From: Gemmatimonadales bacterium
GTDB taxonomy: Bacteria > Gemmatimonadota > Gemmatimonadetes > Gemmatimonadales > GWC2-71-9
Reading direction: 5' to 3'
NCBI GenBank assembly: GCA_025935995.1
Contig: JAICUF010000018.1
Span: forward strand, 1-33,917
Length of the DNA: 33,917 nt
Below the pieces are notes generated by a model that saw only the letters and a list, made by a program, of their open reading frames with translations, searched no databases and had not been told where the DNA came from. This document shows positions 30,986-33,917 of this stretch, piece after piece (positions within the stretch are counted from its first letter, which is position 1; each line of letters begins with the position of its first letter). The position numbers were made by a program, and so were the translations under genes.

Positions 30986-31636
30986 CTGGGAGCCGAGCCC
31001 GCGCGGTGGCGGCAGCTCTGGCGCCGGCTCGGCGCCCGCGGCGAGGCCGACACGGCCCTCGCCGTCATCCTCGGCCACTACGGCTCCGATCGCCGTGCCT
31101 ACCACGATCTTCGCCACCTCACCGAGTGCCTCGCCCTCTTCGACGAGGTGTCGTCGCGCGCGCGCCAGCCCGATGAGGTGGAGGCAGCGCTCTGGTTCCA
31201 CGACGCGATCTACGACCCCGACGCCGGCGACAACGAGGAGCGGAGCGCCGCGCTCGCCGAAACGCTCCTCGGGGGAGCCGGCGTCCGGACCGAGCACCTA
31301 GCGGAAATCCGCCGGCTGATTCTCGCGACCGGGCATCGCGGCAGCCGCGATGCGTCGGACGACGCCGCGCTCATCACCGACATCGACCTGGCGATCTTCG
31401 GCAGCGATCCCGCGCGGTTCGACGAGTACGAACGCGACATCCGGCGCGAGTATGCCTTCGTCCCCGACGGCGAGTTTCGCCGGCGCCGCGCGCAGATCCT
31501 CGAGTCGTTCATGGCCCGGCCGACCGTCTTCGCCACACCGTGGTTCATCGAGCGGCTGGAGACCCGTGCCCGCGCGAACCTTGGCCGGTCGATCACATCC
31601 CTCAGATTGGTTGACCCCCCGGCCCCGGGAGCCTAG
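30986..31636 (+). CDS. HD-superfamily metal-dependent phosphohydrolase (putative CTG start at 30986 or 30980)
   Basis: In-frame RAYHDLRHLTECLALFDEV (upstream of GTG 31148) plus VEAALWFHDAIYDPDAGDNEERSA; no ATG/GTG/TTG 5' of 31148 in this frame. Confidence 0.85.
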   Translation: MGAEPARWRQLWRRLGARGEADTALAVILGHYGSDRRAYHDLRHLTECLALFDEVSSRARQPDEVEAALWFHDAIYDPDAGDNEERSAALAETLLGGAGVRTEHLAEIRRLILATGHRGSRDASDDAALITDIDLAIFGSDPARFDEYERDIRREYAFVPDGEFRRRRAQILESFMARPTVFATPWFIERLETRARANLGRSITSLRLVDPPAPGA

Positions 31637-31639
31637 ATT
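31611..31639 (+). promoter_or_regulatory. Sigma70-like promoter TTGACC (31611-31616) - 17 nt - TAGATT (31634-31639) for the riboswitch-htpX-terC unit
   Basis: Hexamers and spacing; predicted TSS about 31646, right at the riboswitch 5' end. Confidence 0.65.
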
Positions 31640-31645
31640 CCGGTC

Positions 31646-31770
31646 GAGAAGGGGAGTAGCTCATCCGCCAGGGTGGCGGACGGCCGATCGTCAGGACTGC
31701 GGGCCATGGCCCGCACGGTCCGGCCGGGAAGCGAAGCCGCGGGCTTCGCGTCAGAGCGAGACCTTCGTCA
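31646..31770 (+). ncRNA. yybP-ykoY manganese riboswitch
   Basis: Conserved GAAGGGGAGTAGC ... GAGCGAGACCTTC; internal perfect helices TCCGCCA/TGGCGGA, GCGGGCC/GGCCCGC, GGAC/GTCC, GCGAAGCC/GGCTTCGC; P1 GAAGG/CCTTC. Confidence 0.93.
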
Positions 31771-31813
31771 CCCAGCGCTGCCAGGCGCGTGACGAAGGTC
31801 TCGCTCTTTTTTT
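31753..31813 (+). terminator. Intrinsic terminator overlapping the riboswitch 3' strand
   Basis: 19-bp perfect stem AGAGCGAGACCTTCGTCAC / GTGACGAAGGTCTCGCTCT (31753-31771 / 31789-31807) running into a T7 tract (31807-31813). Confidence 0.94.
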
Positions 31814-31837
31814 GGCAGCCACACACGGGATCCGACG

Positions 31838-32671
31838 ATGAACAACGTCAAGACATTCGTGCTGATGGCCGGCCTCATGGGCCTCTTCCTGCTGGCGGGC
31901 CAGCTCCTGGGCGGCGCCGGCGGACTCCTGTTCGCCCTCGTGCTGGGGGGCGCCGTCAACTTCTTCATGTACTTCTTCTCCGACCGGCTCGTGCTCCGCA
32001 TGTACCGGGCACAGCTGGTGACGGAAGCGGAGGCGCCCGAGCTCTACCGCATGGTCAACCGGCTCCGGCAGCGCGCCGGCCTCCCCATGCCGAAGATCGC
32101 GATCGCCCCGCACGCACAGCCCAACGCCTTTGCCACGGGCCGGAACCCGGAGCACGCCGTCGTCGCGGTGACCAGCGGCATCCTCAAGGCCATGCCCGCC
32201 GAGGAGCTCGAGGGAGTGATTGCCCACGAGCTGGCCCACGTGAAGAATCGGGACATGCTGACCAGCACCATCGCCGCGGGGATGGCCGGCGCGATCTCGA
32301 ACCTGCCTTATCTGTTGCTCTTCGGCGGGGGCGACGACGATGGCGGCCACCCGATGGCGCAGCTGGCGCTCGCGCTGCTGGGCCCGATCGGCGCGATGCT
32401 CATCCAGTTCGCCATCTCGCGCCAGCGGGAGTTCGAGGCCGACCGCGTCGGCGCCGAGATCGCCGGCCGGCCGCTCCCGCTGGCGCGGGCGCTCACGCGC
32501 CTCGACACCATGGCCCACCAGATTCCGATGCAAGTGGCCCCGGCGGCGGCCCCGCTCGCGCAGGTGAACCCGCTCGCCGCGTACGGGGGCGGCATCGGCC
32601 GGCTCTTCAGCACCCATCCGCCGACGGCCGAGCGGGTCGCACGCCTCGAGGCGATGGCGGCCGGCCGCTAG
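31838..32671 (+). CDS. htpX: HtpX-family zinc metalloprotease
   Basis: TM segments; GVIAHELAHVKNRDML (HEXXH); REFEADRVGAEIAG; FSTHPPTAERVARLEAM. Confidence 0.96.
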   Translation: MNNVKTFVLMAGLMGLFLLAGQLLGGAGGLLFALVLGGAVNFFMYFFSDRLVLRMYRAQLVTEAEAPELYRMVNRLRQRAGLPMPKIAIAPHAQPNAFATGRNPEHAVVAVTSGILKAMPAEELEGVIAHELAHVKNRDMLTSTIAAGMAGAISNLPYLLLFGGGDDDGGHPMAQLALALLGPIGAMLIQFAISRQREFEADRVGAEIAGRPLPLARALTRLDTMAHQIPMQVAPAAAPLAQVNPLAAYGGGIGRLFSTHPPTAERVARLEAMAAGR

Positions 32672-33598
32672 GTGGGCGTTCACCCGCCGGTCGTCTGGAT
32701 CGGCTTCTCGATCCTGGTCGCGGTGCTCCTGGCACTCGACCTCTTCGTGCTCAACCGCCGCTCCCACGTGCTCGCGCCGAAGGAGGCGCTCACGTGGAGC
32801 GGCATTCTCGTGGCGCTGGCCCTCCTCTTCGGGCTCTTCCTCATGTCGCGGGAGGGGGCCCACCACGCGCTCGAGTTCTACACCGGGTATCTGATCGAGC
32901 TCAGCCTGAGCGTCGACAACCTCTTCGTCTTCATCCTCGTCTTCCAGTACTTCGCCGTCCCCGCGAAGTATCAGCCCCGCGTCCTCAAGTGGGGCATCCT
33001 CGGCGCCATCGTGATGCGGCTCGCGATGATCATGCTCGGCGCGGCACTGCTTCAGCGATTCTCGTGGATCATCTACGTCTTCGGCGGCGTGCTGGTGCTC
33101 ACGGGGATCCGGATGGCGCGGACCAGGGACGAGGACACGATCGACCCGGCCCGGAACGTGGTCGCCCGGCTCGCGCGGCGCTTCCTGCCCTTCACGGAAC
33201 ATCACGACGGGCAGAAGTTCTTCACCCGGGTCGAGCGGGGGGCGCTCCGGGCCACGCCGCTGTTCCTCGTCCTCCTCGTGATCGAGTGGACCGATCTCGT
33301 CTTCGCGATCGACAGCATCCCGGCGATCTTCGCCGTCACGCGCGACCCGTTTCTGGTCTACAGCTCCAACATCTTCGCGATCCTCGGGCTCCGGGCCCTC
33401 TTCTTCGTGCTGGCTGGCGCGATGGACCGGTTCGTCTACCTCAAGGCCGGCGTCGCCTTCATCCTCGTCTTCGTCGGGCTCAAGATGGTGGCGACCGCGT
33501 GGGTCCATGTGCCGATCCTGCTCTCACTCGGCGTGATCATCGGCACGCTCGCGACGGCGATCGGGCTCTCGCTCCGGAAGGCGCCCGCTGGCGCCTGA
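32672..33598 (+). CDS. TerC/Alx-family membrane protein (Mn efflux family)
   Basis: YLIELSLSVDNLFVFILVFQYF, VIEWTDLVFAIDSIPAIFAVTRDPFLVYSSNIFAILGLRALFF; GTG directly abuts the htpX TAG. Confidence 0.95.
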   Translation: MGVHPPVVWIGFSILVAVLLALDLFVLNRRSHVLAPKEALTWSGILVALALLFGLFLMSREGAHHALEFYTGYLIELSLSVDNLFVFILVFQYFAVPAKYQPRVLKWGILGAIVMRLAMIMLGAALLQRFSWIIYVFGGVLVLTGIRMARTRDEDTIDPARNVVARLARRFLPFTEHHDGQKFFTRVERGALRATPLFLVLLVIEWTDLVFAIDSIPAIFAVTRDPFLVYSSNIFAILGLRALFFVLAGAMDRFVYLKAGVAFILVFVGLKMVATAWVHVPILLSLGVIIGTLATAIGLSLRKAPAGA

Positions 33599-33623: not shown

Positions 33624-33917
33624 ATGCCGAACCGACCCACCGGGCTCCTGGCACGCCTGGGCCTCGACCGCGCCGAGCTCCGCGCCTGGGCGATGTACGA
33701 CTGGGCCAACTCCGCCATGATGGTCGTGGTGGTCACGGCCATCTTCCCCATCTTCTTCTCCGCCGTCGCGGCGTCCGGCATGGCGCGCACCGCCGCCACC
33801 GCCCGCTTCAGCATCGCCACCACCATCGGCCTCGCCATCATCGCGGTCACGGCGCCGCTCCTCGGCACGATCGCCGACCGGACGGCGTCCAAGCTCCGGC
33901 TGCTGGGCCTCTTCCTC
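33624..33917 (+). CDS. MFS transporter, UMF1/Atg22-like family (truncated at window end)
   Basis: MPNRPTGLLARLGLDRAELRAWAMYDWANSAMMVVVVTAIFPIFFSAV, open to the window end. Confidence 0.85.
   Translation, partial: MPNRPTGLLARLGLDRAELRAWAMYDWANSAMMVVVVTAIFPIFFSAVAASGMARTAATARFSIATTIGLAIIAVTAPLLGTIADRTASKLRLLGLFL

Follow-up and report, generated by a model that had tools for sequence, protein, structure and literature searches.

A predicted Mn2+ riboswitch with a transcription terminator precedes htpX and terC in a Gemmatimonadales bacterium

Organization of the htpX-terC Locus

The window, i.e. the whole stretch of 33,917 nucleotides of Gemmatimonadales DNA that was analyzed (contig JAICUF010000018.1), carries near its end a promoter-like site, an RNA leader and two adjoining genes. 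The features are as follows.

31611–31639, + strand: sigma70-like promoter TTGACC-N17-TAGATT (1 found versus 0.1 expected in shuffled sequences)
31645–31769, + strand: complete yybP-ykoY-type (Mn2+) aptamer (covariance model R1, folding and covariation)
31753–31813, + strand: intrinsic terminator, arms 31753–31771 and 31789–31807 (19 bp, perfect), T7 tract 31807–31813
31838–32671, + strand: htpX, M48B membrane zinc metalloprotease, 277 aa (Pfam PF01435 (M48), E 1.2e-34)
32672–33598, + strand: terC/alx, TerC-family Mn exporter, 308 aa (Pfam TerC PF03741, E 1.8e-51, 174.8 bits)

The HtpX protein contains the HEXXH motif in the form HELAH (32225–32239) together with the distal Glu motif SRQREFEAD, and it matches the HtpX homolog of PDB entry 3cqb with an E value of 1.1e-15. 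Its score against the NCBIfam HtpX equivalog is 351 bits, slightly below the cutoff of 369. For the TerC protein a score of 395.7 bits was obtained with the NCBIfam family R_switched_Alx (TIGR03718, cutoff 246.4). The gap between the htpX stop codon and the terC start is 0 nt. Thus, the reading frames and the Pfam and NCBIfam matches confirm the gene order proposed in the initial annotation, with htpX first and terC immediately behind it. An ATG22-like transporter gene, inside which the window ends, lies 25 nt past terC (33624–33917) and may share the transcript. An open reading frame upstream of the locus (31148–31636) stops 8 nt short of the aptamer match.

The end of the promoter is separated by 11 nt from the GGGG of the aptamer, and the transcript start would therefore fall near the first base of the aptamer. 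A site of the form TTGAC(C/T/G)-N16–18-TANNTT is found 11–16 nt before the GGGG in most loci of the family to which the window belongs (family f1). No other sigma70-like site was detected in the region. The initial annotation had named a strong htpX promoter beyond the terminator as evidence that would speak against a riboswitch; such a promoter was looked for and not found, and the 24 nt between the T tract and the htpX start codon are too short for a whole promoter.

Class Membership of the Aptamer

The L1 motif GGGGAGTAGC occupies positions 31651–31660, with loop L1 proper (GGAGUA) at 31653–31658. It is flanked by the helices P1.1 (GAAGG/CCUUC, 31648–31652/31762–31766) and P1.2 (GCUC/GAGC, 31659–31662/31754–31757), and the 3′ strand of the aptamer, GAGCGAGACCTTC, spans 31754–31766. 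Hence the class-defining elements, L1 GGGGAGUAGC and the 3′ strand G(C)GAGACC, which together form P1.1-L1-P1.2, are both present, and P1 covaries. The remainder is made up of the hairpins P2 and P4 and of the P3 arm, whose L3 reads UCAGGAC. Within the L3 motif GTCAGGAC the UCA lies at 31691–31693 and places A31693, a putative Mn-contact residue, at the position of the invariant adenosine (A41 in L. lactis, A48 in X. oryzae); the equation with the Mn-coordinating residue was made by alignment to E. coli alx, not by structure. A search of the source genome revealed no further copy of the aptamer.

A covariance search with the Rfam model RF00080, the check proposed in the initial annotation, gave no match at the locus at the gathering score. 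However, the validated E. coli mntP aptamer reaches only 41.6 bits with RF00080 (Rfam 15), whose own cutoff is 45, and the model lacks the conserved 3′ GCGAGACC strand. Since this positive control fell under the cutoff, RF00080 was dropped as arbiter of membership. We judge the failure to lie with the library model, which serves for detection, and not with the RNA itself; GC-rich members escape the present Rfam Mn model wholesale. As expected, E. coli genomes gave no match in a DNA similarity search either.

A separate model was therefore built from relatives. A bare pattern search (GGGGAGTAGC, 75–105 nt, GMRAGACC) yielded 26 matches in 17 of 101 genomes, while the reversed pattern yielded 0. 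The covariance model R1 was constructed from 21 aligned matches, with E. coli mntP and alx kept outside the training set. These 21 copies share the L3 UCA and a CACGG, neither of which was demanded by the search pattern. In 28 pairs, 95% of the cells were paired (74% in shuffles), compensatory changes occurred in 21 of them, and the same picture was obtained on 98 distinct rows. R1 detected E. coli mntP with 40.8 bits (E 1.2e-7) and alx with 39.9 bits (E 1.9e-7). Detection of these two untrained leaders settles the homology to validated Mn2+ riboswitches. At the locus, which is itself part of the R1 training set, the match covers 31645–31769 with 90.5 bits (E 6.6e-19). The L3 ligand-site adenosine is kept in 98 of 100 aligned copies, the window included. 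Consequently, the earlier proposal of a full yybP-ykoY aptamer agrees with L1, L3, the 3′ strand and the behavior of R1, and the RNA is almost certainly a member of the yybP-ykoY (Mn2+) riboswitch class. From the class and the conserved L3 adenosine we infer Mn2+ as the ligand.

Only two of the 100 copies (L105 701–812 in genome G036 and L008 249–372 in genome G055) have a changed L3 (GGCTATGCC and GTCGGGA) in which the Mn-coordinating adenosine is missing. One of this pair lies ahead of a gene for a sodium:neurotransmitter symporter (Pfam SNF in L105; sequence likeness in L008). These two aptamers are possibly a variant with another ligand.

Competition between Aptamer and Terminator

The 5′ arm of the terminator is the 3′ strand of the aptamer. 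When the RNA was cut at 31773, folding gave the aptamer (−67.9 kcal/mol), whereas the full-length leader gave the terminator fold (−102.6 kcal/mol, z −6.25). Both the dual use of the strand in a 19-bp stem with a T7 tract and the mutual exclusivity of the two folds, as expected for Mn-ON logic, had been postulated before and are borne out by this comparison. The terminator alternatives of the other loci were scored by RNAfold with shuffled controls. Each of the 52 aptamer-htpX loci can form an anti-P1 hairpin that captures the P1 3′ strand, where shuffled sequences predict 12.9, and in 44 of the 52 a U tract stands behind it (1.1 expected). Thus, folding and the 52 loci point to an expression platform in which the P1.1 3′ strand competes with a downstream terminator arm. 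A simple terminator scan missed the hairpin of the window because its loop limit was 8 nt, and bulged stems were under-called by a scan that counted mismatches. Given the high stability of the 19-bp GC-rich terminator, the switch could be under kinetic control or stay OFF most of the time.

Stabilization of P1 against a terminator has been established for the L. lactis and X. oryzae riboswitches (PMC11087558, PMC6754395). These transcriptional ON-switches, L. lactis yoaB and X. oryzae yybP-ykoY, share with the locus the L1 and L3 motifs, four helices and a P1.1 3′ strand common to an intrinsic terminator (PMC6754395, PMC11087558). The locus differs from them as a GC-rich variant missed by RF00080 whose first gene encodes a protease and not a transporter. 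The E. coli alx and mntP leaders are likewise related, as both are detected by R1, and alx is the TerC-family counterpart of terC. In contrast to the locus with its intrinsic terminator, translation and Rho take part in the control of mntP (PMC11647493), and neither the alx nor the mntP operon contains htpX.

htpX as a Recurrent Target in Gemmatimonadota

R1 was run over 399 Gemmatimonadota genomes and gave 112 matches in 81 genomes; with two further relatives 114 loci were available. The first gene after the aptamer was htpX in 52 loci, terC in 30 (in 1 of them followed by htpX) and another gene in 28, and the contig ended in 4. The survey of aptamers before htpX in related genomes that the initial annotation had suggested was thereby done, with R1 in place of RF00080. 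An htpX-terC operon was found in 19 of the 52 htpX loci, all in the family of the window, and the htpX stop codon and the terC match were 0–25 nt apart in 18 of these 19. In the remaining 33 loci (24 in family f2, 5 in f6 and 4 in f1, the last including contigs that end soon after htpX) no terC was present in the downstream DNA covered. The htpX-only targets are distributed over 14 genera and three families. In Gemmatimonadetes AVDCRST_MAG68 (locus L176) an aptamer-terC unit is followed by a second aptamer with htpX.

Among the 25 genomes of the window's family with a close htpX (E <1e-100), the aptamer precedes this gene in 20, and 2 more are cut by contig ends. As htpX is one gene in several thousand, practically no aptamer-htpX pairs are expected by chance, although the copies of related genomes are not independent. 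These genomic counts support well that htpX is a true riboswitch target and not an oddity. On the other hand, no aptamer was found in approximately 80% of the sampled Gemmatimonadota genomes, and Mn control of htpX is consequently not universal in the phylum.

Aptamer-Linked htpX outside the Phylum

Named genomes were searched for HtpX, and R1 was then applied. One Thermodesulfovibrionia genome (L180, E 7.8e-9) and one uncultured bacterium (L183, E 3.1e-7) carry an aptamer directly before htpX, in both cases with a complementary strand and a T run downstream. The gene following htpX in L180 belongs to GDT1/UPF0016 (Pfam E 1e-43), a family of Mn exporters distinct from TerC. A survey of Nitrospirota around L180 revealed aptamers in 43 of 299 genomes, and htpX was the first gene in 16 of the 30 loci inspected. 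Several other Nitrospirota loci lead to proteins that, by the appearance of their sequences, resemble P-type cation ATPases or carbonic anhydrases. The carbonic anhydrase-like gene follows the aptamer in L261 (1501–1607), L274 and L288; in L261 the next genes encode a zinc-ribbon protein and a P-type ATPase-like protein. In L268 and L272 a second GGGGAGTA...AGACC pattern, seen as a pattern and without an R1 score, lies just past htpX at about 2640–2730 on the aptamer strand, which suggests that the gene behind htpX may have an aptamer of its own.

In the HtpX tree the aptamer-linked proteins of Gemmatimonadota and Nitrospirota fall into separate groups, the latter beside aptamer-free Nitrospira. 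The aptamer label needs 6 changes on this tree, at least 3 of which are forced by well-supported branches. Because of the separate groups, a recent transfer of the htpX-aptamer pair between the phyla is unlikely; a single ancient origin with later losses is possible.

Further Targets of the Aptamer

In family f2, which belongs to the order of the window, a gene for an SPFH/Band 7 lipoprotein lies behind the aptamer in 8 loci (L087, L103, L104, L111, L119, L126, L127 and L150). OmpH/Skp-like chaperone operons, with the OmpH gene falling within the first 1.6 kb, follow it in 10 loci. In the OmpH/Skp-like periplasmic chaperone loci L108, L112, L125, L146, L154, L159, L160, L161 and L162 a small unnamed protein is often encoded first. 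In addition, f2 aptamers precede genes for universal stress proteins and for a secreted protein that has no name, and a CDF exporter and a P-type ATPase occur in f4; exporters were to be expected as targets. A secreted protein without Pfam match (...QQTVINAPSVDQT...) recurs downstream of the aptamers L128, L131 and L157, also L136 and L152. Taken together, the HtpX, SPFH and OmpH targets suggest envelope protein quality control as a common theme.

Proposed Mechanism and Physiological Role

We propose that the locus is a Mn-sensing, transcription-terminating ON-switch controlling htpX and with it terC, and assign this reading a probability of roughly 0.85; the Mn-ON switch taken by itself is highly probable. 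Aptamer, terminator, their predicted exclusivity, the gene order and its recurrence are apparent from the genomes, and the Mn response and the ON direction would follow from the riboswitch class. The transcript would begin a short way before the aptamer. At low Mn2+ the downstream complementary strand would capture the P1 3′ strand, the 19-bp hairpin and T7 tract would form, and RNA polymerase would stop before htpX. At high Mn2+ the ion would be bound between L1 and L3, P1 stabilized and the terminator blocked, and read-through would yield htpX and terC as one operon.

It is conceivable that htpX is merely a passenger inserted between the aptamer and the exporter, and that the riboswitch exists for terC. 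The order aptamer-htpX-terC is indeed common in the family of the window (19 loci), and terC is an established target of the class. However, htpX stands alone behind the aptamer in 29 loci of f2 and f6, L176 has separate aptamers for the two genes, and Nitrospirota pair htpX with another exporter or with none. This explanation is already largely refuted and appears unlikely. About equally unlikely is a structural relative of the class that senses a cue other than Mn2+, such as another metal, alkaline pH or another ligand. The assignment is derived from sequence, Rfam gives no match, and a response to pH has also been described for the E. coli alx leader. Against this, L1, the L3 UCA and the 3′ strand agree with Mn-sensing members, and many sister copies precede Mn/cation exporter families (TerC, CDF, P-type ATPase).

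The strength of the terminator and the short distance to the upstream gene would also fit constitutive attenuation, or a plain terminator of the gene ending at 31636. This is very improbable, as the 5′ arm of the hairpin coincides with the conserved aptamer strand, and promoter, aptamer and terminator recur jointly in relatives behind other upstream sequences.

Within a known class, the RNA of the locus, a predicted Mn2+ riboswitch, represents a new GC-rich branch, and its exporter target is textbook. To our knowledge, the known targets of the yybP-ykoY class are almost all transporters. An open-access literature search for htpX with a Mn riboswitch returned nothing besides a TerC paper (PMC10550928) and one unrelated item, and a search for yybP-ykoY with Gemmatimonadota returned none. 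The riboswitch-htpX link, recurrent in two phyla, thus appears undescribed in the open-access literature. The initial annotation had called the htpX target unusual; with 52 of the 114 Gemmatimonadota aptamers this no longer holds.

In B. subtilis FtsH, HtpX and flotillins co-purify with the TerC proteins MeeY (YkoY) and MeeF, and loss of the TerC proteins makes FtsH essential (PMC10550928). TerC is thus associated with HtpX/FtsH/SPFH proteins there as well; the link is physical and genetic in B. subtilis, whereas at the locus it is transcriptional, with one Mn aptamer before htpX. In E. coli the SPFH protein QmcA in multicopy rescues the loss of ftsH and htpX (PMC2636767), and both observations provide independent support for the envelope theme. 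Vibrio mneA and terC under yybP-ykoY control (PMC13274385) show GDT1/UPF0016 and TerC exporters as targets, comparable to the GDT1 gene behind htpX in L180, but without a protease.

TerC would export Mn2+ and may also load it into exported proteins. When Mn is in excess, HtpX as a membrane-embedded protease would most probably remove mis-metallated, misfolded or translocon-stuck membrane or secretory proteins, perhaps while touching TerC; for a role of HtpX in Mn stress the odds are about even. The recurrence of a protease target in two phyla whose HtpX lineages are separate, at times under an aptamer next to the one of the exporter, points to a physiological connection of Mn overload with the quality control of membrane proteins, which so far rested on the B. 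subtilis co-purification and genetics. We infer such a connection, and it is strengthened by the SPFH and OmpH/Skp-like targets, the htpX-GDT1 operon and the co-purification of HtpX and FtsH with TerC. It also offers a concrete, testable function for HtpX, a protease for which little is known about the natural substrates and about the stress that induces it. More tentatively, and at slightly less than even chances, Mn2+ riboswitches may govern an envelope-proteostasis regulon (HtpX, SPFH scaffold, OmpH/Skp-like chaperone) beside exporters, with htpX as target in at least two phyla. The cell would then read Mn excess as a danger to its membrane and exported proteins, and HtpX would serve Mn homeostasis in a dedicated role, perhaps by partnering TerC or GDT1 during secretion. 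Since more than half of the aptamer-htpX loci have no linked terC, HtpX need not act together with TerC.
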